From positions 1 to 64,000 of the forward strand of contig JAEUVA010000025.1 in assembly GCA_016787045.1 (NCBI GenBank): 64,000 bases of DNA, in the 5' to 3' direction. Origin of the DNA: Chitinophagales bacterium (GTDB taxonomy: Bacteria > Bacteroidota > Bacteroidia > Chitinophagales > LD1). This document shows positions 43,038 through 60,104 of the stretch, piece by piece. Under the pieces are notes generated by a model. That model did not search any database. It was not told the origin of the DNA and saw nothing but the letters and a program-made list of their open reading frames with translations. Made by a program: the position numbers and the translations under genes. The first letter of the stretch is position 1, and each line of letters begins with the position of its first letter.

Positions 43038-44187
43038 TCCCGACCTGAAACAATTGGTTGATGAGGGTTTTGAGATTGAGGTAAAAGGTGGGCATCTAAT
43101 TGTCCACCACATACCTTATGTAAACAGCAAACGTGAAATTAAATACGGCACTCTGATTACCGCACTCTCTTTGAATAATAATGTTACACTTAAACCTGAT
43201 ACACATGTAATGGGCTTTATGGGTGAGCATCCATGCAACAAAGATGGAAGTATCATTTCAGCAATTCATCATTCAAGCCCGAATCAACAAGTGGCTGATG
43301 GTTTTGTAATGAATCATACTTTTTCCAACAAACCGCCAAACGGTTATGAGAATTATTATCACAAGGTAACGCAGTATGAAAAAATAATTTCTGCTCCTGC
43401 CAAGTCGCTTGATAAATCGGTTACTGCTCAAACTTTCAAAGTGACTGAATGCAATGAAGATGAATCGGTGTTTCATTACATTGATTCCAATTCAAGCCGT
43501 GCCAACATCAATCACCTCAATTCAAAATTCAAAGGTCAGCGAATAGGAATTGTTGGTGTCGGTGGGACGGGTACTTACATTTTGGATTTGGTTGCCAAAA
43601 CTGCTGTTGATGAAATTTTACTTTTTGATGCTGATGAATTTCTTCAACACAATTCATTCCGTGCTCCGGGTGCTGCATCCATTGATACGCTGAATAAGCG
43701 AATGAAAAAAGTGGATTACTTCGCTGAAATTTATTCTCAGATGCGTAGGGGGATAAAAGCATATCCCGAACATGTAACAGAAAAAAATATTGAGTTGCTC
43801 AATGGGCTTTCTTATGTGTTCGTTTGCGTTGACAGTAACAGTGCAAGAAGTATGATAATTTCCAACCTTAAAAAGTTTGGTGTTACATTTATTGATGTCG
43901 GACTTGGTGTGAATGTAGTTGACGAAAATCTTATCGGACAACTAAGAGTTACTGTCGGCACTCCTGAAAAGTATGACCATATTCCAAAGAGGATTGGTTC
44001 TGCTTCAATGGAAGACGATGAGTATGCAACTAACATTCAGATTGCTGACCTTAATGCAATGAATGCTTTTATGGCAGTTGTGAAATGGAAAAAACTTTGC
44101 GGCTTCTATCAGGATTTGAACCAAGAACATAATTCAACTTTTACAATTAACACGGGGCAACTTATTCATGAAGACAATACAGCATAA
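43012..44187 (+). CDS. E1-like ThiF-family adenylyltransferase with N-terminal DUF6791-like domain
   Basis: 391 residues. Residues about 10-140 form a separate domain resembling DUF6791 (GEHPCNKDGS with Cys75; FSNKPPNGYENYYHKVTQYE), which accompanies multiubiquitin E1s and may stand in for an E2. Residues about 165-391 are ThiF/E1: nucleotide loop IVGVGGTGTY, LLFDADEF (two acids), HNSFRAPG (Arg217, equivalent to the adenylation-site Arg) and VFVCVDS. It should adenylate the ubiquitin-like C-terminus. A classic separate E2 gene is missing. Overlaps both neighbours, implying translational coupling. Confidence 0.85.
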   Translation: MLLAQINRSPDLKQLVDEGFEIEVKGGHLIVHHIPYVNSKREIKYGTLITALSLNNNVTLKPDTHVMGFMGEHPCNKDGSIISAIHHSSPNQQVADGFVMNHTFSNKPPNGYENYYHKVTQYEKIISAPAKSLDKSVTAQTFKVTECNEDESVFHYIDSNSSRANINHLNSKFKGQRIGIVGVGGTGTYILDLVAKTAVDEILLFDADEFLQHNSFRAPGAASIDTLNKRMKKVDYFAEIYSQMRRGIKAYPEHVTEKNIELLNGLSYVFVCVDSNSARSMIISNLKKFGVTFIDVGLGVNVVDENLIGQLRVTVGTPEKYDHIPKRIGSASMEDDEYATNIQIADLNAMNAFMAVVKWKKLCGFYQDLNQEHNSTFTINTGQLIHEDNTA

Positions 44188-44515
44188 GTTTGTTGAGTTC
44201 ATTCCTGATGTGATAGAAGAAGGTGTTTTGTATATCTCAATTCCTTATTGCACAGCTATACATAAATGTGTGTGTGGCTGCGGCAATGAAGTAGTTACTC
44301 CGCTTTCTCCTACTGATTGGGAAATTCGATTTGATGGTAAAACTATTTCACTTGACCCTTCAATTGGTAACTGGAGTTTTGAATGCCAGTCGCACTATTT
44401 TATAACACGAAGCAAAATTCGTTACGCAAGGCGTTGGAAAGATTGGGAAATTGAAGAAGGCAGAAAAGAAGATTTAGAAAACAAGGAAAAGTATTTCGGA
44501 AAAAAGAAAAAGTAG
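44168..44515 (+). CDS. DUF6527-like putative zinc protein of the ubiquitin-like operon
   Basis: 115 residues. IHKCVCGCGNEV (Cys34, Cys36, Cys38) and FECQSHYF (Cys73, His76) form a probable metal site; the C-terminus is strongly charged (KEKYFGKKKK). Proteins of this type are found beside multiubiquitin and ThiF genes; their activity is unproven, with a peptidase or ligase-like partner role possible. It begins 20 bp inside the E1-like gene and ends 2 bp from the convergent hsdS stop. Confidence 0.78.
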   Translation: MKTIQHKFVEFIPDVIEEGVLYISIPYCTAIHKCVCGCGNEVVTPLSPTDWEIRFDGKTISLDPSIGNWSFECQSHYFITRSKIRYARRWKDWEIEEGRKEDLENKEKYFGKKKK

Positions 44516-44517
44516 TT

Positions 44518-45747
44518 TTAAACTGCCGTTGCTTTCTTTATCTCTAACTCCCCCCTAAACGCCTTTTGGCTTAAACTACCATACAAATTCTCTAACTCCT
44601 GCAAGCTTTGTTGGTAATGGGTTTTGAGGACTTCTGTTTTTTCAAATACTTCACCGAATTTGTTTTGGAGTTCAATAGGCGGTTGTTTAAGTTTTATTTT
44701 TCTGATTATGGTCAAATTGAGACCATCCATTATGGCACCTTTTACATTGTTGCTCATTTGTCTAACAATGAGTGGATGACTATGAAAGGCATAAGCAACG
44801 AAATATGGATTTGCTATTTCCTTGTTTAATGTAATTGCGGCTAAATGTTTTGAGTTAATACAAAGCGGAATATCTTTAGGAACAACGGCTGTTCGGCCAA
44901 GTGTTGCCATAATAGAAATTAATACATCATTTGGAAAAACTTGATACCTTTTTAATTCTTTGAATTTTTCACTAGTAATGCATCTGTTTTTTTTCCAAGT
45001 AAATCTATTAGTAACAACATTATCAATCCCTAAGACTTTCACATCACCTGTTTCTGTAAATTCTCCATGAAGCAAACTGCTTCCAAATGGGCCACTTCTC
45101 ATGCTTGCCTTTTTCTTTTCTGCTAATTCCTCAAATTTCACTTCATCCCATTCTTCTGTTTCGGGATTATCACAAAACATCTCCAAAAACGTGCTTTTCA
45201 AAAATTCATCCAGCAGGCGGATGCTTTCTTTGCGTTGGGCTATCAGGTTTTCGGCTTTGCTTAAGAGATTAGCAATGTGGAGTTGGTCGGGAAGGGGTGG
45301 AAGGGGAATTTCAATCTCTTTAAGATTTGAAATATTAAAACTTGCCTGATTAACCGACTTCTTTGTTATTCGTTTTATCTTACTTCTAAATATTGGACTT
45401 TTTAAAAAGTAGAATGAATACATTGGATGGACTTTACTTTCATCTGCTTTTAAACAAAGTAAGTTCATACCGTGTATCACTTTTTCATTAATAGAATTTA
45501 CCAAAGCAACCTTTCCAAGATGTGAAACACTATTTATGTGAGACATTAAAATATCATTCTCTTGTAAATAAAAGTCCGAAAAACTTTCATCATGTATTGA
45601 GGCATATCCAACTCTACTTAAATCAACTGTTCCATCAGCTATTGTTTCGATTCGAGTAATAGGATAGCCATCGGCTACTTTATCTTGCTTGATATTAGCC
45701 CCGTTTCTTATTACAGGAAAAACATTTCCTAATTTCTCAAACTTCAT
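44518..45747 (-). CDS. hsdS: Type I restriction-modification specificity subunit
   Basis: 409 residues with two target-recognition domains (about 1-150 and 195-355), each followed by a conserved helical spacer: IPLPPLPDQLHIANLLSKAE in the middle and KLKQPPIELQNKFGEVFEK near the end. It sets the bipartite DNA sequence recognised by the HsdMS and HsdRMS complexes. Last gene of the hsd operon; its ATG overlaps the stop of the small 66-codon frame (TAATG). Confidence 0.93.
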   Translation of the reverse strand: MKFEKLGNVFPVIRNGANIKQDKVADGYPITRIETIADGTVDLSRVGYASIHDESFSDFYLQENDILMSHINSVSHLGKVALVNSINEKVIHGMNLLCLKADESKVHPMYSFYFLKSPIFRSKIKRITKKSVNQASFNISNLKEIEIPLPPLPDQLHIANLLSKAENLIAQRKESIRLLDEFLKSTFLEMFCDNPETEEWDEVKFEELAEKKKASMRSGPFGSSLLHGEFTETGDVKVLGIDNVVTNRFTWKKNRCITSEKFKELKRYQVFPNDVLISIMATLGRTAVVPKDIPLCINSKHLAAITLNKEIANPYFVAYAFHSHPLIVRQMSNNVKGAIMDGLNLTIIRKIKLKQPPIELQNKFGEVFEKTEVLKTHYQQSLQELENLYGSLSQKAFRGELEIKKATAV

Positions 45748-45947
45748 TACACCAACTCTTTTAATTCCGCCAACCCTTTTTGAATATCGGCTTCAATGGA
45801 TTCTAATATATAACACATAACTGTTGGACTCCTTCGGAGTCCAAGGATTGTAGCTATGTCCAAAGCTACAAACCTGCGACCCCAAAGGGGTCGAACATCA
45901 TCTGCCTGGGTATTGATAGATGAGAGAAAATGATATATTCTATCCAT
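45747..45947 (-). pseudogene. 66-codon frame: hsdM-tail-like remnant carrying three inserted hairpins
   Basis: The last 20 residues (ESIEADIQKGLAELKELV) resemble the end of HsdM just upstream (LEKNIETGLMELKTLV), while the middle is the translation of three palindromes. It overlaps the hsdM stop by 8 bp and the hsdS start by 1 bp. Most likely a second, decayed HsdM C-terminal tail or a fragment left by recombination in the operon; it may still be translated and couple hsdM to hsdS. No function assigned. Confidence 0.5.
45824..45893. repeat. Three consecutive hairpins between hsdM and hsdS
   Basis: TTGGACTCC-TTC-GGAGTCCAA (45824-45844), TGTAGCT...AGCTACA (45849-45870) and CGACCCC-AAA-GGGGTCG (45877-45893) follow each other within 70 bp. 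From memory, composite repeats of this kind are scattered in Bacteroidota genomes; only this copy is seen here. Confidence 0.8.
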
Positions 45948-47637
45948 ATACCAAGGTTTTTAATTCCATCAATCCTGTTTCAATATTTTTCTCCAATTCT
46001 TCTAGTTTCCCGAAAATCACCTTTGGTTTTTCATACACTACTTCTTCATACACTTCTTCTTTGTAGGTGCTCAGGTTCAGGTCGTAGTTGTTTTCTACAA
46101 TTTCCTTTTTCGGCACCATAAAGTATTTCAATCTCCTGTCTGAACTATGATTTTTTTGATTGGTATGATTGCCATGATTTTCATCTGCTGATTTATTTGC
46201 CTTTCCTTTCCCACTTTCTTCAATCACATTAATCATTAAATCAGCTGAATCATGGTTCAGACGGTTTTTGTAGCGTTGCACAATGTCGGGCAGGTCGCTT
46301 TCAGCAATTTTGTTTCGCTTATCGTCTAAGGTGTAGCCGTCTGCCTGCATGTCGTAAAACCAAACATTATTGGTTTCGCCACCTTTGGTAAAAATCAAAA
46401 TGGCCGTGCTTACACCTGCATAGGGTTTAAATGCTCCGCTGGGCACGGCAATCACGGCTTTCAGTTCTGCCTTCTCAATAATCAGTTTACGCACCGCTTC
46501 AAATGCCTTACCGCTGTTTTGTATCACACCGCTGGGCACAATTACGGCAGCCGTTCCGCCCATTTTCAGCATGTTAAAAATGCGTTCTACAAACAGCAGT
46601 TCGGTTTTGGTGGTGGGCAGTTTCAGCCCTTCGTTAATATCGCCTTTGTCAATATTGCCCGTAAAGGGCGGGTTCGCCATAATGATGTCGAACTGGCTGT
46701 CTTCGTTGTAGCTTTTACTCAGGGTGTCTTTGTAGTCAATTTTGGGTTCGTCAATGCCATGCATCATCATGTTCATCAAACCCAAACGCACCATGGTGGT
46801 GTCAATGTCGTAACCCACAAAACTCTGGTCTAAAATGGTTTTTACTTTTTGCGTAAGCACGGCACTAATGGCGGCACGCTCAAAACCGTCTTCGTCTTTG
46901 CTCAGTTTGGCAGGGTCTTTCTTGCGAACTAAATCGGTAAGGATGTATTGATACGCCCCCAACAAAAAACCGCCTGTTCCGCAGGCAGGGTCGGCAATGC
47001 GTTGTCCCAATTGCGGAGCTACCAATTCAGCCATCAGTTTAATAATGTGCCGTGGCGTGCGGAACTGTCCGTTTTTACCTGCCGTGGCAATTTCACTCAA
47101 CAGCATTTCATACACATCACCTTGTATGTCCTGAAAAGCATGTCCGCCTTCGGTGGCATCCTTTTCAATTTCCTTGAAAATGTCTTCTACAATGTTGATG
47201 GCCGAAACCAGCAAACTGGCTTTAGGCATAATGAACACAGCGTTTGCCATGTGGCGGGTAAAGGGGCTGCTGCCCCCCTCTCCATTTGGAGAGGGGCCGG
47301 GGGTGAGGTCCTTCAAAAACGGAAACACTTTCATTTGCACATGCAACAGCATTTCGTCTGCGGGCTTGTGTTTAAAAACACTCCAACGCAATTCGTTTTT
47401 GTCAATGCTTTCGTTGCTGCCCGGTATTTGAAACTTGCCTGCAAATCGGCTGCTGTATTTTTCGCCTGTAAACTCTGCATCCCTTTCCCGTTTGGCTTCC
47501 AAATCGTCCAAACGCTTCATAAAAATGAGGTAGGTAATTTGCTCAATGGCAGTTAAAGGGTTGGCAATGCCGCCTTCCCAAAAGTTTTGCCAGAGCTTGT
47601 CAATAAGCGATTTTAATGGTGCGTTGTTTTGTAACAT
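45940..47637 (-). CDS. hsdM: Type I restriction-modification DNA methyltransferase subunit
   Basis: 565 residues: N-terminal helical HsdM domain (about 5-160) and N6-adenine methyltransferase with the SAM motif ADPACGTGGF (about 215-223) and catalytic NPPF. It methylates adenine at the HsdS-chosen site. Residues 110-121 (DLTPGPSPNGEG) are the in-frame translation of the hairpin repeat also seen at 6567-6602; without it VFPFLK would run directly into SPFTRHM as in relatives. The insert lies before the catalytic domain, so the enzyme is probably active. Starts 17 bp after the GxxExxY gene. Confidence 0.93.
   Translation of the reverse strand: MLQNNAPLKSLIDKLWQNFWEGGIANPLTAIEQITYLIFMKRLDDLEAKRERDAEFTGEKYSSRFAGKFQIPGSNESIDKNELRWSVFKHKPADEMLLHVQMKVFPFLKDLTPGPSPNGEGGSSPFTRHMANAVFIMPKASLLVSAINIVEDIFKEIEKDATEGGHAFQDIQGDVYEMLLSEIATAGKNGQFRTPRHIIKLMAELVAPQLGQRIADPACGTGGFLLGAYQYILTDLVRKKDPAKLSKDEDGFERAAISAVLTQKVKTILDQSFVGYDIDTTMVRLGLMNMMMHGIDEPKIDYKDTLSKSYNEDSQFDIIMANPPFTGNIDKGDINEGLKLPTTKTELLFVERIFNMLKMGGTAAVIVPSGVIQNSGKAFEAVRKLIIEKAELKAVIAVPSGAFKPYAGVSTAILIFTKGGETNNVWFYDMQADGYTLDDKRNKIAESDLPDIVQRYKNRLNHDSADLMINVIEESGKGKANKSADENHGNHTNQKNHSSDRRLKYFMVPKKEIVENNYDLNLSTYKEEVYEEVVYEKPKVIFGKLEELEKNIETGLMELKTLVYG
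47273..47308 (-). repeat. Interspersed hairpin repeat inserted in frame in hsdM
   Basis: Palindrome CCCCTCTCC-ATTT-GGAGAGGGG (47275-47296) plus the GGGGGTGAGG tail, the same element as at 6567-6602 and in the same orientation on the + strand. The length keeps the frame open and encodes a Pro/Gly-rich insert. Confidence 0.85.
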
Positions 47638-47654
47638 CTTGTCTGAATCAGAAT

Positions 47655-48062
47655 TTACTTGATTTTTGGATTAGCAGGTTTTTCAACCGTGTTGTATTTT
47701 GGGTTAAAAACTTTTTTGTATTGCAAACTGGTTGCTCCAAAATTGATTAATAACCCTGTTGGAAAGTCGTAGGCAACTACATAGTTTTTTGCTTGTGCCA
47801 AATGAACATCTTCGAGGTTGATAATTGCTTTCAGCTCTACTATTACTTTTTCTTCCACTACAAAATCTGCTCTTCGGGTGCCTACATCAATGCCTTCATA
47901 AAAAATAGTTTGTTCAATTTCTCTACCGAAACTTAATCCTGCTTTTGCCAATTCTATCGCAATGCATCTTTGGTAAATCACTTCCTGAAAGCCATTACCC
48001 AGTGTGTTGTGGACTTTCATCGCACAACCAATTATTTTGTATGTGATTTCTTCTTCCTTCAC
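47655..48062 (-). CDS. GxxExxY-family protein
   Basis: 135 residues. The family signature GNGFQEVIY (G-x-x-E-x-x-Y) follows the conserved MKVHNTLG; DFVVEEKVIVELKA (Asp, Glu and Lys of a possible nuclease-like core) and LLINFGATSLQYKKVF are typical. The family has a PD-(D/E)XK-like look, but no role is proven. It is embedded in the hsd operon, overlapping the BRO gene by 4 bp. Confidence 0.88.
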   Translation of the reverse strand: MKEEEITYKIIGCAMKVHNTLGNGFQEVIYQRCIAIELAKAGLSFGREIEQTIFYEGIDVGTRRADFVVEEKVIVELKAIINLEDVHLAQAKNYVVAYDFPTGLLINFGATSLQYKKVFNPKYNTVEKPANPKIK

Positions 48063-48925
48063 TTCCTTTTTTTCTTTTTATCCTGTTCATCCTCTAATTT
48101 TTTCAATCCTGATTCAGACAGTTTTTTTGCATTCAGGGAGGTAACAACATTTTTACCAGTTTTCGCTTCCAGTTCCTTTCGAGCAACCTTTGCCACATTA
48201 CCACCTTGCTTTGCTACCTTCTTGCTTTCTTCAAAATCTTTAGGGTGGGTTGCGGCTGAGATGTCTTTGGTGGATGCTTCTGCCAGCATGTTCAGAATAA
48301 GTTCCGTATTGGTCATGTTATCCCTAAGGTTTTCCTTTTTCAGCCCTTTAAGGATTTTGTATTCTTTGGTGGTTTTATCACTCCATGCTTTGGTGATGAT
48401 GTCGGTAAGCGTAGCAAACTGAACGCCTTCTTTCAATCCACGTTTTTTCCATTCGTCTGTTAATTCTTTTCGTATTTCAATACTTTTGAGGCGTTGGTTT
48501 ATCCAGTTTTCAGAATAACCGAGTTTCATGTATTGCTCCAATGCTCTGTCAATGCTGAGTTCAGGGTCTTGCATTTCATCCAATCTTTCAGATGCTACCT
48601 GAGCCAGCCATTGTTTAAAGGGTTCTGCTTTGGGAGATGGTATGGATTGTATCAGGCGGAAGAGTTGTTCGGTATCGGCAACATCGGTTAATCGCATTTT
48701 ACCATCAGGAGCAGGCATTTTCAACCCGTGACAATTCGTCACGGTTTCATTTCCTTCCTCTTTAAGTCGTTGTTTTAACTTTCTCCAGTATGCATTGGGG
48801 TCAACGCTTTCCGTCAATACAGCAATTACATCAATAATGGAGATATACCATTTCTCGTTTTCATTATCCCAAAGAGAACGCACTTTTTTGTCTTCAAAGA
48901 TTTTGATATCAGTTTGTTTGCTCAT
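48059..48925 (-). CDS. BRO-N family (DinD-like / phage-antirepressor-like) protein
   Basis: 288 residues. The N-terminal Bro-N-like domain (about 8-115): KVRSLWDNENEKWYISIIDV, DPNAYWRKLKQRL and LFRLIQSIPSPKAEPFKQWL. The C-terminal half resembles DinD (INQRLKSIEIRKELTDEWKK). Lys-rich tail. BRO proteins bind DNA; DinD inhibits RecA filaments in E. coli. Between hsdR and the GxxExxY gene, each with 4-bp overlaps, so it is expressed with the RM system, possibly as regulator. Confidence 0.85.
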   Translation of the reverse strand: MSKQTDIKIFEDKKVRSLWDNENEKWYISIIDVIAVLTESVDPNAYWRKLKQRLKEEGNETVTNCHGLKMPAPDGKMRLTDVADTEQLFRLIQSIPSPKAEPFKQWLAQVASERLDEMQDPELSIDRALEQYMKLGYSENWINQRLKSIEIRKELTDEWKKRGLKEGVQFATLTDIITKAWSDKTTKEYKILKGLKKENLRDNMTNTELILNMLAEASTKDISAATHPKDFEESKKVAKQGGNVAKVARKELEAKTGKNVVTSLNAKKLSESGLKKLEDEQDKKKKRK

Positions 48926-51732
48926 GCCGCTAATACTTGTTCGGTTAAACTTAAAATTTCGTCAATCTCTTTTTGATTGAAAATGCCTCTGATGCCTTCG
49001 GGGTGAAGCATGGTAAAAGGCGATTCAATCAGGTTGCGTTTGCTCACATCACCTTTTTCCAACACAAAATTCTTGAGCAAATCCAAAAATTGCAGTTGTC
49101 GGCTGGTGAGGTAACTGTGTTTGGCAATAAAATCATCAAATGCCTTGGTAACGGTTTCGGCAAAAGTTTCTAATTGTTCAATGCCCAAAATGTGTTTGAT
49201 GAATTGCACCAATGCCGCTTTACGGTGGTTGTAAACCTTGCGTAGCAAATCAATGGTAATGTGCGGATGCTCGTTGTGCAGTTCTTCTGCCAATTGCTCG
49301 GCTTCATCCGTGGTGATTTCTTGTCCTTGTTTTAGCTTTTGTAAAATCGGACTGCTTGAAACCAGTTCATTGATTTTCTTTTCAACCAGTTCACGGTATT
49401 TGGCCACACTCAACGCTTCGTGTTGCGGACCAAACTCTACAAATTCTTTTTCAGCAACAATATCTTTCAGGTTGAATTTTGCAGGAGCTAACGGAATTAC
49501 CGCTTCACGGAATTTCATTAAAGGCGAAAGTTTCTGAATCAGTTCCTCAAACTTGTCTTCAAGGATGCCTGCCCCGCTACCAGCGGGGGTTGCCCAATAA
49601 TGATTGCTCTGTGCCTGACGAATTAATTCTTGTTCTCTTGCCACAATGTTGATGCTCAATGGCAGTTCGCCAATTTCTTCAATGATGCTTTCTTTCAGCG
49701 TTTCAAACTTTTCGGTTTCACCTGCCAAATGAGCCAATGAAACTTCCACAATGTCTTTTTCAAATCGCATGGCTTTGAAATCCACATCTGAAACCGTGCG
49801 AAGCAGTGGTTTTACCACAGCTTCCAAAAATTCCATTTTGTCAGAAGTGAGATTGCTCCAAAAGTTTTCATCTTCCAGGCGTTGCAGTTCATGTTTGGCT
49901 TCCATAATCACTACCGAGTTTTTGGGAAGCGATTCAACTTGCTTTCTGATTTTCTGAACTTCTTTGTTTACAATTTCAGCATTGCTTTGCGTTCGGGCTT
50001 CTTCAATCTTTTCTAATCGCACACCAAACAAACGAACAGGCAAAGGAATTTGTCCTTTCAGTTCTTTACCTCTCGGATTCAGTTTGAAATATTCAAAGTT
50101 GTCCCAACAATCGAGAATCAGGAAATTGTCTTTTTGTGTGCACCAAGGTTTTATTTTTTCAGGTTCGAGTAAACGAGTTCCTCTGCCTATCATTTGCCAA
50201 AATTTGGTGTAGCTATAAACAGGTTTTGCGAAAACCAAATTCACCAATTCCCGAACATCAATACCTGTGTCGAGCATGTCCACACTAATGGCAATGCGTG
50301 GCATATCATTACTCACAAACTGGTCGAGCAAGCCGCCTTTGCCATAAACCCGTGGGTCTTCGCTTACCAATACTTTGGCTAATTCGCCTTTGTATTCGGG
50401 ATAAAGCGAATCAAAAATTTCTTCTACTCGTCTTGCATGGGCTTTACTGATGCAAAAGAAAATCGTTTTCCCCGGCAAAACTCCGTTGGCATCTTTGATG
50501 CTTTCTTCCATGAATTCACGAACAATCAAAGCGTTTGTTCCACGGTTGATTACTTTCTTTTCAATCTCTGTTCCTTCGTAGTTGATTTCTTCAATTTCCT
50601 TTCCTTCCAACATGAGTTTTTGTTGGTCTTCCAAAGAAATTGTCCGCTTGTTTATTCCTTCATCTTGAAACTTGGTTTTGATTTTCATTACCTGAAAATT
50701 GCTCAGAAATGGCGGAATGTGATTAACCGCTTCGTCATAAGAATAAGCAAAAGTTGGAACGCCATCTTCGCATTCAAACAATTGAAACGTGTTGTGGTCA
50801 ATTACATCCGTTGGTGTTGCTGTCAATCCAAGCGTAATGGTATTGAAGTAATCAAGAATTTCTTGATAGGTGTTGTAAATGCTTCGGTGGCTTTCGTCCA
50901 CCACAATCAAGTCAAAGAAATGAGGACTTAAACTTTTTTCTTCGTTGCGAATTACATTCAACATAGTCGGATAAGTTGAAACATAAATCCGTCTGTCGGT
51001 GGCAATTTCTTTTTCGCCTTGCTTTGGCCAGCGTGGTTCGTTGGGCAAATGCTCTTTGAATGCTTCCAAAGTTTGGTCACGAAGTGCAATTCTGTCAACA
51101 AGGAACAAAACCCTTTCTGCCCAACCTGCTCTCATTAATGCGTCCACCAAGGCAATGCAGGTTCTTGTCTTGCCTGTGCCTGTTGCCATTACCAATAAAA
51201 ATTTGCGTTTCCGTTTTTCAACGGCTTCCATTACCGCACGAATAGAAGCAATTTGATAATTCCGACCTGCAATTTTGGTATTAATGAGTTCACCTGCTAA
51301 TTGCTTTCTCGCTTTACGAATGTATGCGTAGCGTTCAAGGTCATCCCGTGTCGGAAAGCCATATACTTTCTTTGGCGGATAATTGTCTAAGTCCCAAAAG
51401 TAAATGTCGTGTCCATTGGTGTAAAAGCAGAAAGGCAAGTCAACACCTTGTGTTTGTTTAATGTTGTAGCAATATTGTTTGGCTTGTTCCCGTCCAAGTG
51501 CTGCGTCCACCGAAGTTTTTTTGGCTTCCACAACGGCAAGCGGTTTACCGTCCTTGCCTAATAAAACATAGTCGCTGTATTGGTGTCCAGCGTATGGAGT
51601 TGTCGGTTCTTCAACAACAGTCAACTGAATATCAAATTCCTCAATTACCTGAGTTCGGTCAGTCACATTCCAGCCCGCTTGTTTTAAGCGGTTGTCAATG
51701 ATTTCTTTCCTTGTCAGTTTTTCGTTTTTCAC
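48922..51732 (-). CDS. hsdR: Type I restriction enzyme R (motor/nuclease) subunit
   Basis: 936 residues from a GTG start. N-terminal PD-(D/E)XK nuclease (SDYVLLGKDGKPLAVVEAKK), SF2 helicase motor with MATGTGKTRT (Walker A), VVDESHRSIY (DEAH type), LGLTATP and MIGRGTRL, and an EcoEI-type C-terminal domain. It translocates DNA and cuts unmodified targets. First gene of hsdR-BRO-GxxExxY-hsdM-(remnant)-hsdS. Near 49572-49588 the coding DNA contains a perfect 7-bp-arm hairpin read as TPAGSGAG, possibly another small insert. Confidence 0.93.
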   Translation of the reverse strand: MKNEKLTRKEIIDNRLKQAGWNVTDRTQVIEEFDIQLTVVEEPTTPYAGHQYSDYVLLGKDGKPLAVVEAKKTSVDAALGREQAKQYCYNIKQTQGVDLPFCFYTNGHDIYFWDLDNYPPKKVYGFPTRDDLERYAYIRKARKQLAGELINTKIAGRNYQIASIRAVMEAVEKRKRKFLLVMATGTGKTRTCIALVDALMRAGWAERVLFLVDRIALRDQTLEAFKEHLPNEPRWPKQGEKEIATDRRIYVSTYPTMLNVIRNEEKSLSPHFFDLIVVDESHRSIYNTYQEILDYFNTITLGLTATPTDVIDHNTFQLFECEDGVPTFAYSYDEAVNHIPPFLSNFQVMKIKTKFQDEGINKRTISLEDQQKLMLEGKEIEEINYEGTEIEKKVINRGTNALIVREFMEESIKDANGVLPGKTIFFCISKAHARRVEEIFDSLYPEYKGELAKVLVSEDPRVYGKGGLLDQFVSNDMPRIAISVDMLDTGIDVRELVNLVFAKPVYSYTKFWQMIGRGTRLLEPEKIKPWCTQKDNFLILDCWDNFEYFKLNPRGKELKGQIPLPVRLFGVRLEKIEEARTQSNAEIVNKEVQKIRKQVESLPKNSVVIMEAKHELQRLEDENFWSNLTSDKMEFLEAVVKPLLRTVSDVDFKAMRFEKDIVEVSLAHLAGETEKFETLKESIIEEIGELPLSINIVAREQELIRQAQSNHYWATPAGSGAGILEDKFEELIQKLSPLMKFREAVIPLAPAKFNLKDIVAEKEFVEFGPQHEALSVAKYRELVEKKINELVSSSPILQKLKQGQEITTDEAEQLAEELHNEHPHITIDLLRKVYNHRKAALVQFIKHILGIEQLETFAETVTKAFDDFIAKHSYLTSRQLQFLDLLKNFVLEKGDVSKRNLIESPFTMLHPEGIRGIFNQKEIDEILSLTEQVLAA

Positions 51733-52176: not shown

Positions 52177-52451
52177 TGTTGTGCGTCTGCCCTACCGGTG
52201 TCCACATGATGGCTACACAAAAGAGTTTAAGTCGTCACTTTCTATGCCTGTCTGTGAATGGGGACTGTTGCATATTACGGCTATACTGATTGGGCGGCTT
52301 CCGCTCTCTTTCCGCAACCAAATTCCTTTGAAAAATAAACAGAGGGTTGCGGAATGTGAGCGGAATGCGCTGCTGTATTAGTCCGGCTGTTTGTCTGACG
52401 AGCGATAAGAGTTGTTGTCCGGTCGCAAGAAATTGTTTCATAAGTCTAGGA

Positions 52452-52772
52452 ATTTGCACTGCCGACCAACTTGTCTGCGAAGGCGAACCAGTGATTTGCG
52501 TTTCCCTCCCACTGGTTTGAACAACCGTGCCATGTCATTTGCGATTCCAGCCCACTCGTTTGCAGAGGCGGTCAAGTCGTTTGCGTTTCCGTCCGACTTA
52601 ATTGCAGAGGCGGCTGAACGATTTGCGTTTCCAGACCAAGCGTTTGAACAACCATGTCGTGTCGTTTGCGATTCCGTCCAAGTCGTTTGCAAAGGCGGAC
52701 GATTGAATTGCGTTTCCGACCCACTTAATTGTGTTTCCGTTCAGGTCGTTTGCGTTTCCAACCCGTCTTAAA
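52452..52772 (+). repeat. Tandem 21-bp repeat array 2 (TCGTTTGCGTTTCC type)
   Basis: About 15 degenerate units at a 21-bp period, for example TCGTTTGCGTTTCCGTCCGA, TCGTTTGCAGAGGCGGTCAA and TCGTTTGCGATTCCGTCCAA. More diverged than array 1 but with the same TCGTTT head and orientation. ORFs on either strand (119 and 84 codons) follow from the period and are not taken as genes. Confidence 0.82.
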
Positions 52773-52849: not shown

Positions 52850-53002
52850 CTATTTTGTTGTTGGCTTCAATTTCGTTCGTTCAAAATATGCTTTTAACTG
52901 CTCAAAAGTCATTCCTTTAATCTCTTTCGAGATTTTGGTCTTAATATCTCTGAACGTTTTTACCGTGTCAAAGTCCTTTTCAATTTTATTCTTCGTTTTC
53001 AT
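52850..53002 (-). CDS. Small antitoxin-like protein
   Basis: 50 residues, read directly from the sequence: starts MKTKNKIEKDFDTVKTFRDI, contains MTFEQLKAYFERTK and ends PTTK. Its ATG lies 17 bp inside the PIN-domain gene, a coupling typical of toxin-antitoxin pairs. Basic and helical; no named antitoxin family recognised. Toxin-first order is less usual. Confidence 0.7.
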   Translation of the reverse strand: MKTKNKIEKDFDTVKTFRDIKTKISKEIKGMTFEQLKAYFERTKLKPTTK

Positions 53003-53453
53003 AACCGACTATTTCCTTAGGTGAATGAATATTTAATGTTGGATAACCTAAGCGCAAATTTACGGAATTATATCCGCGTATGCGATATACGTTTACAATA
53101 TGCTTAAAGTTCCAACTAACTAGCAAATCAACTTTGCTGATGGTAGCAGTTGCAATATGGATGCAATCGTCTAAACTTGTTTCTCCAACAACTTTTTCCT
53201 CGATATAACTTTGTGCCAATTGAACTGCCTCCGGTGTTACTTCAACTTTCTCTTTGCAGTCATCGCTTAATGAAAGAAAAAATTCTCTCACTCTTTGGGG
53301 CGCATCGTTCAATTCACTTTCGGTTAAACTTGAATAAACACAGATTATCTGACCAAGTTTTACTTTCTCAAACAGGAGAGTTGTTTCTAATTCAAATTCC
53401 GTATCAAAGATGCCACCAATAGTAGATGTGTCGAAGTAGAAGCGTTGTTTCAT
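52986..53453 (-). CDS. PIN-domain putative toxin (VapC-like)
   Basis: 155 residues with the PIN pattern of spaced acids: FYFDTSTIGG near the N-terminus (Asp8), SLTESELND, GETSLDDCIHIATA (Asp pair) and DLLVSWNFKHI near the end. PIN toxins are Mg-dependent RNases cutting tRNA or rRNA. It precedes and overlaps the 50-residue antitoxin gene. The middle of a larger accessory region. Confidence 0.78.
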   Translation of the reverse strand: MKQRFYFDTSTIGGIFDTEFELETTLLFEKVKLGQIICVYSSLTESELNDAPQRVREFFLSLSDDCKEKVEVTPEAVQLAQSYIEEKVVGETSLDDCIHIATATISKVDLLVSWNFKHIVNVYRIRGYNSVNLRLGYPTLNIHSPKEIVGYENEE

Positions 53454-53484: not shown

Positions 53485-53874
53485 TCAATCTTTGTCAAAC
53501 TCTTCCTTAGAAATTTTCTTACCGTCAAGTGGGTCAGCAGAATACGCAGATTCTTTGATGCTGTATGTAATTGTCAATACTGAATATCCATCACTCCCTA
53601 CATAAACCTGAAAAGGTTTCCCCTTTGAAAACATGGGTTCCTTTCCTTGAATAGTAGCTTTTGTTTTTAAATAAAAATTCCCTGTTGAAGCAAAGTATAT
53701 CGTTTGGTTGGACCAAGGAGATACAGTAACAAACGAATGACGGTGGTTTGAACTTGTCATTACTTTTATTGATAATGTTCGCTGGGAATTGTTTTGAATT
53801 TTCAATTGAGCACTTTGTGAAAAACTTAAAACAGTGCAAAAAATAAATGTGAGTGCAAGCAGTAGTTGTTTCAT
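53485..53874 (-). CDS. Exported hypothetical protein, last gene of the DUF4407 operon
   Basis: 129 residues with a signal peptide (MKQLLLALTFIFCTVLSFSQ). The mature part is beta-rich (KIQNNSQRTLSIKVMTSS; WSNQTIYFASTGNFYLKTKA) and ends in an acidic/basic tail. Not recognised. Its start overlaps the stop of the preceding membrane gene by 4 bp, so it belongs to the seven-gene unit and would be its periplasmic component. Confidence 0.7.
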   Translation of the reverse strand: MKQLLLALTFIFCTVLSFSQSAQLKIQNNSQRTLSIKVMTSSNHRHSFVTVSPWSNQTIYFASTGNFYLKTKATIQGKEPMFSKGKPFQVYVGSDGYSVLTITYSIKESAYSADPLDGKKISKEEFDKD

Positions 53875-54173
53875 TTCTCTTTATTGGGTTTGTGTATAAA
53901 TATTGAACCGATTAGAAGGAGCGCCACTACAACATCCACTAAATTCCAAATATCTCTGCCTAAAGCGATTTTAAAAATTGGTTGAAAGAGAATTGCCAAT
54001 ACTGAGTAAACCCAAACAAGATTCGTCTCGCTTCTATCGTAGGATTTGAATGCAAAAAACACAAAACCACCTGTTGCAACGAAGCGAACAAATTGATAGT
54101 AGCCATAAGGTAAGTGCAAAAGGCAAAGCAGCAATAAGGCAGCGATGATAAGTTTTAATCCTTTTTCAATCAT
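53871..54173 (-). CDS. Small four-helix membrane protein (DUF6804-like)
   Basis: 100 residues, nearly all hydrophobic, with about four membrane segments and a charged tail (HKPNKEK). The words LHLPYGYYQFVRFVATGGFVFFAF and ILFQPIFKIALGRDIW match what I recall of the DUF6804 family; role unknown. Overlaps both neighbours by 4 bp. Confidence 0.65.
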   Translation of the reverse strand: MIEKGLKLIIAALLLLCLLHLPYGYYQFVRFVATGGFVFFAFKSYDRSETNLVWVYSVLAILFQPIFKIALGRDIWNLVDVVVALLLIGSIFIHKPNKEK

Positions 54174-54667
54174 CTGTAAATTGGAGTTTGAGGGTATGGA
54201 ATTATCTTGTCAATTACGTGCGGTAAAATTTCTTTGCTTATGAATAAAGTCAAAAGAAGCAGACCTATGAACAATGTAATAGCTGTAAGTTCATTGTTAG
54301 CTAAAGCAAATGAGAGTTTGGATTTGCCGTAAAAGAGATTGAAAAGAATAAAACTGACTGCATAATTTAAAGCAAATAATGTCATAGCTATCACAACAAA
54401 AACAACATAAAATTCAGATAGCCGAGAAAAAATGTTGTCAGGTGTTGCATTCTCTACAATTCTCCAAAGCGTCATAAACGGAATAACTAAGCCCGACAGG
54501 ATGTAGCCAATTGAAATGAAAATTCCGCTTTTGAAAAGTAAATAGCTGCCCTGCGTATTATCGCTGTTAGTTGTCTTTGCCATTCTGTTTATCAAGGTAT
54601 TTGCTATGAATGCCGACACAGAGGCGGTAAGAAGAAGTGAAATGTAAATTGTAAGTTCTTGTTTCAT
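54170..54667 (-). CDS. Four-helix membrane protein, unknown function
   Basis: 165 residues with four predicted membrane segments (about 6-26, 48-70, 88-112, 130-148). The two-repeat hydrophobic layout (LFKSGIFISIGYILSG and ANNELTAITLFIGLLLL) faintly recalls DUF350, but I do not assign it. It starts 2 bp after the stop of the transglutaminase-like gene. Confidence 0.65.
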   Translation of the reverse strand: MKQELTIYISLLLTASVSAFIANTLINRMAKTTNSDNTQGSYLLFKSGIFISIGYILSGLVIPFMTLWRIVENATPDNIFSRLSEFYVVFVVIAMTLFALNYAVSFILFNLFYGKSKLSFALANNELTAITLFIGLLLLTLFISKEILPHVIDKIIPYPQTPIYR

Positions 54668-54669
54668 GC

Positions 54670-56325
54670 TTATGATATTTGTTTAGATAAAAGATTTGGT
54701 TGCCAATTATCGGTGTTGGATATTTCTACCGGTATTTCTCCAGGTTTCAAATCCGGTGCGGTTGTTTCCCACAAAATATATCTTTTTCCTTGAATTATTT
54801 TAGATGTTCCGGTGTAAGGTAAATTGATGCCGAGCAATGAATGACGATAAACATCGCTGCCAAGCATGGCTACGTCATAATTAAAGTGTGATAATATCGT
54901 GTATAGCAATAAAGTTCTTGTGTCGCAGTCGCCCAAAAGATTAGCAGAAAACTCAACAGGGCTATAAAGACCATATTTAATATACCCCTCGCATTTACCT
55001 CCATTCTTTAAGTATCCTTGAATAAAAGCATCATCATACAACCGTGCATTGCAATCATTATCGAGAATCAGCGTGTATGGAATATCCTGAATGCAGCATA
55101 CTATCATTTCTGCAAACTGCATTTCGTTCAGGTTGTTTTTTGTTTTGATAGAATCAAACACAGAATAAAGCAATGCTAACTTGTCTTGGTCAAAGTTTTT
55201 CAAAGAGTAAACTACTCTATTGTAATCGTATGAATTACTTAAATCATAGGGTAAATTAAGGCGATTGTATTTTGCTTTGGTAAAATCTGATTTCAAAATC
55301 TCCATCCATGCGCCATACTTTTTCCCTTGATAATCATTCCAAGACCGATAATGCGCAATAACTGTATCAGAATACTGTGGGTCAGTTTTTTTACGACTGA
55401 CTTCTTCGGGACTGTTTTCAGCAATTCTTCTCTTTACACTTGGGAAAGGATTATTGAATAGAGAGATAATTCCGAAAACTGCATAGAGTATAAACCCAAT
55501 AGAAAGCAACTGCAAAGCCCATTTAGATAACTTGCTAAGAATGGTTGGCAGTGATGATAGCAAGAAAAAGAACAGCCAAATTCCTACAATTGGCAGCAAT
55601 AGTTTCCACGCAACAGAAATAAGCATGAACGCAATAAATAGCCAGTATAGAATCCCGATTATACCTATTATGAATCCAAATAAATCTGAAAGCCCGAAAC
55701 CAGTTCCGCCACCACTTCTTCCTCTTATGGGTTTTGGGATTCTTTCCCATTTAGACCATTCCCTTTCACCGGTATCTGAGTTTCTTATTATTGTTCTATG
55801 GTAATCATCTTTTACCTCTGTTACTCCAACGGCTGGTATATCATTAATTGGTTCGCTCTCGTTTGTTATTACCAATTCTTCAACAGGAACTTCTTTTTGT
55901 TCCACATCAAAATGCTTGAAGTAGCCACAAATGTTTCCCTCAATTGTGCCAAATAACTTTTCGCCTTCATGAAGTTGGTTGTATAGATGAAAGTCTGAGA
56001 GTTTGGCATCATGCAATTCTATTTTGTAGTGCCTGATAGTTCCATCCGCTTGCTGAACATTACAAACAACAGGAGTTGGAATTTTTGTAAGAAATGGTTC
56101 ATGGCATTTATATTCATCAAACTCGTCACCTTCCTGCCATTTTCTAAAGTGCTCGCTATCGCGTTTTGTTACAATTTCTCCTTCATAAATCTCAAGGTTG
56201 TAATAGTTTTCCCGTTTACCGTCTGACCATTCATTATCAATCAAAGCCCAATACTTGCCCTTGAACCTGCCTTTAAGATAGGTTCTGCGCTCATAAGAAA
56301 CTTCAATAATAACCAACTCAGACAT
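54670..56325 (-). CDS. Membrane protein with C-terminal transglutaminase-like domain
   Basis: 551 residues. The N-terminal ~200 residues are soluble and beta-rich (YLKGRFKGKYWALIDNEW). Gly/Arg-rich linker, then four or so membrane segments (about 213-300). The C-terminal ~240 residues look like a transglutaminase-type cysteine peptidase fold: Cys467 in LLGDCDTRTLLLY, His495 in YRHSLLGI and Glu520 in WETTAP are in the right order. Activity is inferred only. It overlaps the downstream DUF4407-like gene by 8 bp. Likely the enzymatic member of the operon. Confidence 0.68.
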   Translation of the reverse strand: MSELVIIEVSYERRTYLKGRFKGKYWALIDNEWSDGKRENYYNLEIYEGEIVTKRDSEHFRKWQEGDEFDEYKCHEPFLTKIPTPVVCNVQQADGTIRHYKIELHDAKLSDFHLYNQLHEGEKLFGTIEGNICGYFKHFDVEQKEVPVEELVITNESEPINDIPAVGVTEVKDDYHRTIIRNSDTGEREWSKWERIPKPIRGRSGGGTGFGLSDLFGFIIGIIGILYWLFIAFMLISVAWKLLLPIVGIWLFFFLLSSLPTILSKLSKWALQLLSIGFILYAVFGIISLFNNPFPSVKRRIAENSPEEVSRKKTDPQYSDTVIAHYRSWNDYQGKKYGAWMEILKSDFTKAKYNRLNLPYDLSNSYDYNRVVYSLKNFDQDKLALLYSVFDSIKTKNNLNEMQFAEMIVCCIQDIPYTLILDNDCNARLYDDAFIQGYLKNGGKCEGYIKYGLYSPVEFSANLLGDCDTRTLLLYTILSHFNYDVAMLGSDVYRHSLLGINLPYTGTSKIIQGKRYILWETTAPDLKPGEIPVEISNTDNWQPNLLSKQIS

Positions 56326-57310
56326 CGTATAATTCTTCTTTAAGCGATGATTGTTCTAAAAAATCTCTCGCATCCTTTTTTCGGATAGTATTAAAAGGCG
56401 GGTCAGCAAAAACAACTTCAAATTCATAGTTTTTTTGTGTTATCTCAGCAAGCACAACATTCATCCTTTCGTGTTTGTCAGGCGGACGAACTTCTAAATC
56501 CTGAAAAAACTCTTTCCAAAATGCCTTGTATCTTGCTTTAAATGAAGCGTATTCATCCAAAACAATTTGAGTTTCTATTTTTTTCTTCTTCTGGTAGAAC
56601 TCGTTTTGTTCTTCCATTAAATACTTTAAATACACAGGAGCTACGAAAAGCATTATCATCATTATAGTTACAATCCAAGTAAAGATGTATTTTGAGTTAA
56701 GTATTCTTATCTGTTCTATATAGCAATCAGACGAGTAAATTTTTTGTTTTAAAAGTGCTAAGATGTTTGTCTTTTCAATTTGCTTTTTTAATAAAATACT
56801 TTTCACAGAGTTATCACCTAACTGAATCATTCTTTCTAATTCGTTAAAAGATTTTTCATACAAGGAGTTAACCACAGTTTCATTGACCTTATACTCTTTT
56901 GCTTTGTGTAATTCAATATCACTTTTCAAAAATGGACTGAATAACATAAGCTCAAATGGTTTAGATACAATCATTGCAAATACTGCAATAAAGACAACTC
57001 GCAGTGCAATAGAAATCCATCTTGCCCCCCTACTGGAAATATGAGGCAAAAGATTTTTTGAAAGTGTGTAGAGCAACAGAATGTAAATGTTTGCCATCAT
57101 CAGAGCAAAAAATATCCCAATAGCTATATCGAATAATACAAAATCAAAAAAGTGTATGAAAGCACCGGTAACGCTTATAAAACTGATAGCGATAATACAA
57201 GCCACCAAAGCTCCAATTAACACAAAACGATTCTGCGTTTTCTTACTGCATTCACGAATAATACTTCTATCGTCACCGGAAAGAATAAGGAAGAAGTCCT
57301 TAATTGTCAT
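56318..57310 (-). CDS. DUF4407-like membrane protein (short form)
   Basis: 330 residues: paired membrane segments near the N-terminus (about 28-52 and 58-85), a third (about 100-125), a charged helical stretch (about 135-210) and a fourth membrane segment (about 212-232), then a soluble tail. It shares the motif ISKPFELMLFSP / ISKPVEIRMF with the next protein and the same layout, so they are distant paralogues. Overlaps both neighbours (11 and 8 bp). Confidence 0.65.
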   Translation of the reverse strand: MTIKDFFLILSGDDRSIIRECSKKTQNRFVLIGALVACIIAISFISVTGAFIHFFDFVLFDIAIGIFFALMMANIYILLLYTLSKNLLPHISSRGARWISIALRVVFIAVFAMIVSKPFELMLFSPFLKSDIELHKAKEYKVNETVVNSLYEKSFNELERMIQLGDNSVKSILLKKQIEKTNILALLKQKIYSSDCYIEQIRILNSKYIFTWIVTIMMIMLFVAPVYLKYLMEEQNEFYQKKKKIETQIVLDEYASFKARYKAFWKEFFQDLEVRPPDKHERMNVVLAEITQKNYEFEVVFADPPFNTIRKKDARDFLEQSSLKEELYDV

Positions 57311-58550
57311 TTGGCGAAGGTGTTATTGGTTCAACTTGAATAAAACCATCGGGGTTGTCATCAATTTGCTTTTTTAGTTTCTCGCCATACTTACCTACGG
57401 CATACTTTGTTAGTTCCTTTTGTTTTTCGAGCAAAGCGACTTTTTCGTGAATCAGTTTTTCAACTTTCATGTGCGTTACCAAATCCCGCTCTAACCCTTG
57501 TTTGTCTTTGTAGTAGTTGTATTGGATGTATATTCCTTCATCAGCTTTCATCAATTCCTTAATATTTTCTTCCATGTAGTCATAAGGAGTCTTTACAAGC
57601 ATCAGTTTAAAGAATATTGGTGTTAGTTCTATCGTCATAAATAGAAGTGTAATGAATAGTGAAATCCATAATCCGGCAATGTGATGAGCAAGTTTTATTC
57701 TCTCTAGTAGTCCATCTAGACCGCTAGCTACCTGAGCATTTTTTGATAATGCCACTTCTTTCTCAGATAGAATTTCTTTCCTCTTCTTCTCTGCTTCATT
57801 CAGCTTGGCAGCATTAATATTGTCGAATCTGGTTAACTCCGCATTTAAAGCATCCAATTGACCTTTTAATGCTTTAGACAGTGGGCCATTACCTGCTCCG
57901 ATTCCATTTGCTTTTCCCATCAGATTGTCTGTATATGCTTGCTCCGCTACTTTTATCCTCTCAATTAAGTTTTGCCTATCTGATAAGATTTTCCCCAAAT
58001 CACCTTCAACAACTTTTAGTCGTTCTTCAAAATTTGCAGTGGTCCGCTTTTCATATTCCTTTTGAAGTTCTAACTGTTCTTCGTATAATTTAGCGTCTAT
58101 TTCAGTTTTGAACATTCTTATTTCAACCGGCTTTGAAATTGTAAGAGCAATGATTGCTCCCATAACAATACGTGGAATTGCTCCTTTAAATTCTTCCCAT
58201 GTAATAGCTTCGGTTCCGTCTCCCTTGCCTGTGCTTGTAACAATAAATCTGTCAATGTTGAATATCATTAGCCCCCAGACACATCCAAACAACATGGAAG
58301 CCAGTGCCACACCCAAATGAAACTCTGATTCTATTGCTGAACCTCTTGGTTCAAAGATTGTATAAAAGGCATAACCGCCCGCTATGGCTGCCATTACACC
58401 GGTAGCAACTACAATGCCGCCTAAGCACATGTATTTTATTTGGTCAGAGTATGTTGCCCTTTCAAGAATAAAATGGTCAGCGCCTGCGGCTGTCCAAAAG
58501 AATTTCATGATAGGTGATGGTTTGGGGGTAACGTAATATTCTCTTTTCAT
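57300..58550 (-). CDS. DUF4407 membrane protein with coiled coil
   Basis: 416 residues. N-terminal membrane segments (about 35-60 and 80-102, MLFGCVWGLMIFNIDRFIV), a third (about 130-147, ALTISKPVEIRMF), a long coiled coil (about 150-285), another membrane helix (about 290-312) and a charged tail. This is the DUF4407 pattern. Function unknown. Overlaps the first gene of the operon by 4 bp. Confidence 0.75.
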   Translation of the reverse strand: MKREYYVTPKPSPIMKFFWTAAGADHFILERATYSDQIKYMCLGGIVVATGVMAAIAGGYAFYTIFEPRGSAIESEFHLGVALASMLFGCVWGLMIFNIDRFIVTSTGKGDGTEAITWEEFKGAIPRIVMGAIIALTISKPVEIRMFKTEIDAKLYEEQLELQKEYEKRTTANFEERLKVVEGDLGKILSDRQNLIERIKVAEQAYTDNLMGKANGIGAGNGPLSKALKGQLDALNAELTRFDNINAAKLNEAEKKRKEILSEKEVALSKNAQVASGLDGLLERIKLAHHIAGLWISLFITLLFMTIELTPIFFKLMLVKTPYDYMEENIKELMKADEGIYIQYNYYKDKQGLERDLVTHMKVEKLIHEKVALLEKQKELTKYAVGKYGEKLKKQIDDNPDGFIQVEPITPSPNDN

Positions 58551-59080
58551 GGTGTTGATTCTTCTGTTTCGTTAATGAATTGAGGAAATGAAATTGTGAA
58601 GTCAGGAATTGAAACTTTTTGCCCACTTGTGAGTATGGTTGTTTTATTTTCTTTTCGAGTATTAAATGAAAATTCGGAAACCGAAGGTTCAAAGGATAAA
58701 AAAGAGGGAATAGAAATTTTTTCAGTAATAGGTGTTTTGATTTTAATATGCTCATTTTTGATAGGAATTACTACTTCTTTACTTGTGCCAATGCCATAAA
58801 ACACTACCCGAATTTGTTTCCTGTCTTTTTTAATTGTAACAGGAGTGTATTTGTTGGTTGCAGGAACTATTGCATTGTCCTCAATAGATAATTTGTAGCA
58901 GTATTTAGTATTCCAAACAAGTGTGGCTACTTCAGTTGTGAGTAACGGGTCTGTGAGATTAGCATAGTAAACAGTAAGTCGCTTTCGCAGTAACCAACAA
59001 GCCAAACAATAAACCCAAGCTAAGTTTATTGTTATCCATTTGATGATTTGTTCGTATGCACTTTTAATCTTCTGCTTCAC
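58547..59080 (-). CDS. Membrane-anchored hypothetical protein, first gene of the DUF4407 operon
   Basis: 177 residues from a GTG start at 59080; no ATG fits. One hydrophobic segment (about 15-32, ITINLAWVYCLACWLL), then a mostly beta, Thr/Lys-rich domain. Not recognised. All seven genes from here to 53485 run on one strand with 4-11 bp overlaps or a 2-bp gap, so one transcript is expected. Confidence 0.65.
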   Translation of the reverse strand: MKQKIKSAYEQIIKWITINLAWVYCLACWLLRKRLTVYYANLTDPLLTTEVATLVWNTKYCYKLSIEDNAIVPATNKYTPVTIKKDRKQIRVVFYGIGTSKEVVIPIKNEHIKIKTPITEKISIPSFLSFEPSVSEFSFNTRKENKTTILTSGQKVSIPDFTISFPQFINETEESTP

Positions 59081-59610: not shown

Positions 59611-59927
59611 TCGCGCCTCATCCACCATCGCTTCCGCCTCCTCCTTGTCCACTTCCCTGCTCATACACCTTAGCTTCCGCCTCCTCCAAAATCGTTTCCG
59701 CCCAATCCTTCTCGGCTTCCGCCTGCACCAAAGTAATTTCCGTCTGCTCCCCAATAGCTTCCGCCTCCTCCTAAATCATTTCCGCCTTCCCGGCATTTAC
59801 TTCCGCCCGTTCCAAATCAGCTTCCGCCTTTGCCAAAATCGTTTCCGCCTGCTCCATCTTAACTTCCGCCTGCTCCATTTTCATTTCCGCCTCCTCCAAA
59901 ATCGTTTCCGCCTCCTCCCGCATGGCT
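59611..59927 (+). repeat. Tandem 21-bp repeat array 3 (TCGTTTCCGCCTCCTCCAAAA type)
   Basis: About 15 units at a 21-bp period, such as TCGTTTCCGCCTCCTCCAAA and AGCTTCCGCCTCCTCCAAAA, with the same TCGTTT/TTCC head and orientation as arrays 1 and 2. Read on the - strand it gives Glu-Ala-Glu heptads (ETILEEAE) interrupted by one stop and a frame change, so if it ever coded for a coiled coil it no longer does. Confidence 0.85.
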
Positions 59928-60104
59928 TATCCCCACACCCTCAAAGCATCCCGTATCCATCGGGCTCATTTGTCATCCATTTGTCAAAAAAACGGCAACA
60001 ACAATTAAGCAGTACAATAACCCAACACACCCTATCGTTAATCCATCAAAACACACAAGCATGCAACAACTGAACTTTTTTTCTAACCATTAAAATTCAG
60101 TATC

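Follow-up and report, generated by a model that had tools for sequence, protein, structure and literature searches.

Five adjacent genes, here called A to E, make up a real and conserved membrane system, apparently undescribed so far, in the DNA of a Chitinophagales bacterium (positions 1-64,000 of contig JAEUVA010000025.1, assembly GCA_016787045.1; this whole stretch of 64,000 nucleotides is called the window below). Its function is predicted: we tentatively propose that A-E may be an accessory response to envelope attack, in which a pair of DUF4407 membrane proteins (B and C) would switch on a hydrolase (D) predicted to face the periplasm. Among the readings considered, defence against phages or competitors is our first choice, followed by envelope housekeeping, surface remodelling and, last, a transamidase or dead enzyme. 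The genes lie on the minus strand, in a row of seven open reading frames (ORFs; A to G) that runs from 59080 to 53485 with intergenic gaps of -4, -11, -8, +2, -4 and -4 bp, which bears out the statement of an earlier note on this DNA that all seven genes overlap or touch (gaps from -11 to +2 bp).

A, 58547..59080, minus strand: 177 aa, poorly conserved beta-type protein that leads the conserved unit, assigned by position
B, 57300..58550, minus strand: 416 aa, full DUF4407 protein with four membrane helices and a helical hairpin
C, 56318..57310, minus strand: 330 aa, second DUF4407-type membrane protein
D, 54670..56325, minus strand: 551 aa, beta domain at the N-terminus, then three predicted membrane helices and a C-terminal transglutaminase/LapG-like domain
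E, 54170..54667, minus strand: 165 aa, membrane protein with four helices, found constantly next to D
F, 53871..54173, minus strand: 100 aa, small membrane protein of the DUF6804 family, variable cargo
G, 53485..53874, minus strand: 129 aa, exported-looking beta protein, variable cargo

Conservation of the A-E unit

The unit was delimited by means of a profile of D, built from 65 sequences chosen among the best 120 listed of 600 matches. One genome per species was scanned (84,980 species); of the 162 matching stretches, 130 encode a relative, and the best 80 were kept, whose record titles name taxa that we take to be Bacteroidota. Because the scan used the D sequence alone, the neighbours of D were not selected for. 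D was called long when its ORF reached at least 400 aa (53 loci) and short in the remaining 27; one of the latter (L052) is really a split long gene, which gives 54 long and 26 short.

All 44 long-D loci with at least 3 kb upstream (from a total of 53) carry a DUF4407-type B/C protein among the two genes directly upstream, with C immediately upstream of D in 42 of them; the two exceptions, L035 and L041, have fragmented genes. Among the other nine long-D loci, C is directly upstream in five, L007 and L033 have no gene upstream of D on the contig, and L077 and L081 have a different ORF there (at L077, positions 2-1159, it reads as an OmpA/LysM/SH3 type and precedes D-E, an alternative partner of this enzyme type). 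No B/C was found within three genes upstream at any of the 26 short-D loci, 23 of which offer at least 3 kb to inspect. By ORF length, E directly follows D in 52/53 long-D and 26/27 short-D loci, the exceptions being L052 and L058, where an unlabelled 160-aa multi-helix ORF stands in E's place.

The strict order B-C-D-E, preceded by a same-strand gene in A's place (position -3 from D), is kept in 42 external loci, with a spacing of at most 30 bp between A and B in 41, B and C in 42, C and D in 40, and D and E in 42. Across these loci and the window, the median pairwise identity is 0.15 for A, 0.53 for B, 0.27 for C, 0.33 for D and 0.19 for E, and the identities of all A-E gene pairs correlate (r 0.72-0.91), so the set diverges together. 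The earlier note had described all seven genes as one machine; this stands for A-E and fails for F and G. Its own check, whether the genes lie apart in most genomes, did not refute the unit: at most loci they are not separated.

The predicted enzyme

The membrane helices of D are predicted at about 214-291 and the C-terminal transglutaminase/LapG-like domain at about 321-551. The Cys467, His495 and Glu520 proposed earlier as a catalytic set do not vary among 65 aligned sequences, of which the window's is one, and are present in 79/80 external loci, the one miss being L052, where D is split and its first piece was aligned. Two further cysteines, Cys425 and Cys445, are also conserved. In the structural model the Cys lies at a helix start and the His on the next strand, followed by the acidic residue, as in the transglutaminase/papain-like superfamily; the C-terminal domain as a whole is modelled, with moderate scores, in the fold of that superfamily, so that the earlier note's second refuting condition, a missing cysteine-peptidase fold, did not apply, and its best structural match is LapG. 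The enzyme domain of D thus most likely belongs to a known fold, as far as the model indicates.

At the sequence level, the D of the window had no Pfam match at E 1 to Transglut_core (PF01841; hhalign 0.3%) or to Peptidase_C93 (PF06035). PF01841 is not among the 25 Pfam families listed, of 53, for the 65 D proteins, and genome G000 has two PF01841 places, both away from D; PF06035 was found in 0/20 related genomes, G000 included.

In short D (n=26), the mean lysine plus arginine counts of the near-membrane loops around the three membrane helices are 2.1, 0.2, 2.3 and 1.5, and by the positive-inside rule these counts place the enzyme domain outside the inner membrane. The signal is less clear for long D, B and C. 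We predict a transglutaminase/LapG-like domain located outside the inner membrane, where the presence of the two additional conserved cysteines would fit a disulphide on the periplasmic side. The description of D as a membrane transglutaminase-like enzyme with a membrane or envelope role is thereby supported at the level of prediction.

The partners of the enzyme

Both B (E 5e-67, 226.7 bits) and C (E 3e-15, 56.8 bits) exceed the Pfam cut-off of 31.3 bits for DUF4407 (PF14362), confirming the two DUF4407 proteins named in the earlier note. DUF4407 is their sole Pfam match over cut-off, and no cyclic di-GMP (c-di-GMP) domain was matched. The model of B (predicted local distance difference test score 77.3) has four membrane helices and hairpin arms at 148-210 and 223-277 (about 55-63 residues each); the long helical hairpin is predicted to sit between membrane helices 3 and 4 and probably, but less surely, lies on the same side as the enzyme domain of D.

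The genes in A's place fall into three sequence clusters in 39/42 loci and into none in 3/42, and no sequence link was found between the three clusters; the low identity of A may therefore partly reflect replacement and not fast change. A had been called an anchored beta protein, and the anchor stays unconfirmed, given an averaged hydropathy profile that has no membrane segment. In E, Pro157 is present in 27/27 aligned sequences, and in 22/27 the chain stops exactly 8 residues further on. By the positive-inside rule, this short C-terminal tail would share the side of the enzyme domain of D; its docking in D is a guess.

Over cut-off, no Pfam match was obtained for A, D, E or G and no NCBIfam match for any of A-G, and none of the seven proteins matched a PADLOC-DB 2.0.0 component model at E 1.

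Downstream cargo

E and F both look multi-helical, as had been noted, and F belongs to DUF6804 (Pfam E 2e-33); G, described earlier as exported, does have a signal-like segment at its N-terminus (read by eye). F and G are variable cargo, outside the conserved unit: F is found in 14/54 long-D and 0/26 short-D loci, and a homologue of G in 1/80 external loci (L009). Recurrent cargo in the 54 long-D loci comprises DUF6804 (14), staphylococcal-nuclease-like (11), SH3 (7) and ligand-gated-channel-like (5) proteins. A signal- or anchor-like N-terminus, by a home-made rule and with genes that are not independent (cargo families repeat), is carried by 41/51 genes after E against 70/253 distant genes (Fisher p 2e-12), and by 43/56 against 102/357 without the size limit. 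The genes after E were the first two on the same strand, shorter than 360 aa and with gaps below 200 bp, and the distant genes were more than 5 positions away in the same loci.

Distribution

In 296 Bacteroidota genomes, for which the counts are lower bounds because both searches scored a capped number of candidates in each genome, DUF4407 is over cut-off in at least 92 (mostly one match each) and D is present in at least 7; four of these 7 (G000, G097, G282 and G070) have a DUF4407 gene no more than about 5 kb from D. D occurs in 3/30 genomes of the window's family (its own included; the copy of G005 is of the short kind) and in 5/121 Flavobacterium genomes, with the full operon in 2/5 (G097 and G428). 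These counts indicate an accessory operon that joins relatives of two commoner units.

The DUF4407 gene read at L086, L093, L108 and L114 (about 356-366 aa) stands alone, with neighbours that differ in all four places. At L056-L085 (minus the long-D loci L058, L062, L077 and L081) a short D of about 340 aa is paired with E; many of these pairs occupy one shared chromosomal place in marine Flavobacteriaceae, beside a LuxE-like acyl-protein synthetase gene.

Comparison with known systems

The nearest working analogy is the LapD-LapG pair, in which, according to the accessible part of the source, LapD keeps LapG, a protease, at the inner membrane (PMC3032545). Nevertheless, D is not a member of the LapG/HvyA family (Peptidase_C93). 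As far as the parts of both sources at hand describe them, LapG and HvyA are soluble periplasmic enzymes with a Cys-His-Asp/Asn set (PMC3032545, PMC4241560), whereas D has three predicted membrane helices, Glu520 as third residue and an N-terminal beta domain, lacks a sequence match to Peptidase_C93 or Transglut_core, and has DUF4407 proteins and E as partners, in which no c-di-GMP domain was matched.

DUF4407 itself is commonly a single membrane protein of Flavobacteriaceae and others, and the curated cut-off places B and C in this family; the common gene stands alone among varied neighbours (four places read), whereas the two diverged copies of the window are tied to D-E. The short D-E pair, mainly from marine Flavobacteriaceae, shares with long D the catalytic domain, the conserved residues and E as neighbour, but is without the N-terminal beta domain and without a DUF4407 partner (26 loci), often lying beside a LuxE-like gene.

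Transglutaminase-like peptidase domains are named, in the accessible text, as effectors of predicted counter-invader systems (PMC8195603, PMC7159879). Such predicted conflict systems (also PMC3710099) have, in the portions seen, a presumed transglutaminase-like peptidase effector in common with the D operon, but there the domains occur in MoxR-vWA ternary systems, in systems linked to death domains, or fused to HEPN/helicase proteins; DUF4407 is mentioned 0 times in each of these three texts, and D, unlike their domains, is membrane-tethered and predicted to face outwards. In the literature searched, three papers name DUF4407, only within tables as far as the accessible text goes, and no description of an A-E system was found. 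The composition of A-E matches no kind of system that we could name or find.

Genomic surroundings

In Flavobacterium, the operon can be seen at a variable place. An HsdR_N-type gene (HsdN) has 28 strong places in this genus, of which 17 were retrieved; 15/17 have a histidine kinase and a response regulator upstream of HsdN on the same strand. Counting ORFs of at least 70 aa, the slot between response regulator and HsdN holds ABCDE plus a YidD-like gene in 1/15 (L128, same genome as L019), AbiD in 1/15 (L141, PADLOC E 1e-74), a TerB-like/membrane coiled-coil/exported lipoprotein cassette, the commonest cargo, in 6/15, small ORFs only in 3/15 and nothing in 4/15. The contents of L128 and L141 thus show that the operon can sit in a slot of changing content, which in relatives is taken by at least one known defence gene. 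The operon of G097 is not at its HsdN place. At L139, which lacks the kinase-regulator pair, HsdN is closely followed downstream by a ThsB-type TIR gene (E 4e-112) and PDC-M30 genes. The loci L128-L142 and L147 read as a conserved locus with the order helix-turn-helix gene/histidine kinase-response regulator, slot, HsdR_N gene and lipoprotein gene, with exchangeable cargo. Among the 54 long-D loci, a TPR-type histidine kinase is near in 20 and HsdN in 18; read by eye, neither stands beside the operon of the window.

In the window, 44518-51732 encode a type I restriction-modification (RM) set with a PDC-S13 protein (PADLOC E 8e-140) between HsdR and HsdM, and 42552-44515 include an E1-like gene (ThiF-type) with a weak PADLOC E1-E2 match (E 2e-7), in a row that we take to be a ubiquitin-like gene, the E1-like gene and a 115-aa gene. 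The earlier note had placed the operon beside RM genes and a toxin-antitoxin pair, of which the RM genes are upheld (PADLOC, type I) and the toxin is not: the 155-aa ORF at 52986-53453 has no Pfam match at E 1. In the stretch 52850-53453 this ORF does look PIN-toxin-like by eye and overlaps a 50-aa ORF, a possible antitoxin.

Proposed function and alternatives

In the mechanism that we envisage, B and C would form a scaffold and sensor watching the envelope, A, the least conserved part, may be a variable sensing or adapting subunit, and E might hold or restrain D via its conserved tail. Upon a breach of the envelope (by phage adsorption, DNA entry or a competitor's toxin), B/C would release or position D, D would cut an envelope protein, and the exported cargo (nuclease-like lipoprotein, SH3, other lipoproteins, ligand-gated-channel-like or DUF6804 proteins) could add to or execute the response. 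A bolder version, which we regard as doubtful, is a horizontally spread, undescribed immune machine of Bacteroidota that protects the envelope itself, in which the DUF4407 pair, its long helical hairpin lying in the periplasm, senses the phage breach and frees the membrane-tethered, LapG-like D from E, D triggers secreted nuclease-type payloads, and the infection is stopped before or during DNA entry.

A defence role, already suggested in the earlier note, is indicated indirectly by the patchy distribution, the AbiD-holding slot in a relative (a location that is suggestive only) and the variable, exported-looking cargo. Several observations temper this indication. The slot mostly holds genes without a strong defence match. 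In the 19 kb read at G023 (= L006), the operon copy is accompanied by none of the window's neighbours. The PADLOC excess near long-D copies is small: in a sample of 130 of 350 eligible neighbour proteins of long-D loci and 130 of 298 of short-D loci, no PADLOC family matched more than 2/130 long-D neighbours at E 1e-20 (86 families in all; the 25 listed are RM specificity models and one mad5), and no family matched any of the 130 short-D neighbours. Because the G023 operon lacks those neighbours and the excess elsewhere is small, the defence argument drawn from the window's own neighbours is weak.

A somewhat unlikely alternative is a non-immune module for envelope maintenance or stress, in which B/C and D/E, relatives of two commoner envelope units joined in one optional operon, often under a two-component system, would process an envelope protein or a peptidoglycan crosslink under stress. 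It would agree with the occurrence of the short D-E pair in 26/80 loci (many sharing chromosomal neighbours), with the abundance of DUF4407 as a mostly single match and, in the four places read, a lone gene, with the TPR-type kinase within 20/54 long-D loci, and with the D-E of L077 and its OmpA/LysM/SH3-type companion; however, the patchy presence, the cargo-slot location shared with AbiD in a relative and the poorly conserved A better suit an accessory conflict role. It is improbable that D remodels the surface as a protease of the kind known from LapD-LapG or HvyA, cutting a surface adhesin or capsule factor, with any effect on phage infection being indirect. LapG is the top structural match of D, LapD tethers LapG at the membrane (PMC3032545) and, in the accessible part of that report, HvyA, a periplasmic LapG relative, prevents capsule formation in Caulobacter and thereby changes its sensitivity to phage (PMC4241560), but B and C have no c-di-GMP domain match and no adhesin or capsule gene was recognised among those recurrent neighbour clusters that were annotated. 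Least probable of all, we consider, is that D, instead of being a hydrolase, acts as a crosslinking transglutaminase or serves as a scaffold without enzyme activity, in spite of a fold that alone cannot separate protease from transamidase, a Glu in place of the usual Asp/Asn, and the lack of a sequence link to a known enzyme.

The operon gives the widespread DUF4407 family a fixed partner and a definite predicted enzyme in which three residues are named, and this makes the role of DUF4407 testable. Most known immune systems work in the cytoplasm or at the inner membrane; if the defence proposal is true, A-E would add a periplasm-facing, protease-based kind of immunity.

Other observations

Imperfect repeats with a 21-bp period lie upstream of the operon (59614-59951 of the window) and 42/127-bp spaced repeats downstream (52444-52759), both arrays together bracketing the operon and the PIN-like ORF. 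On the Halorubrum plasmid p117 (L148), a distant D-like domain has other partners again, adjoining tubulin-like and GrpE genes.
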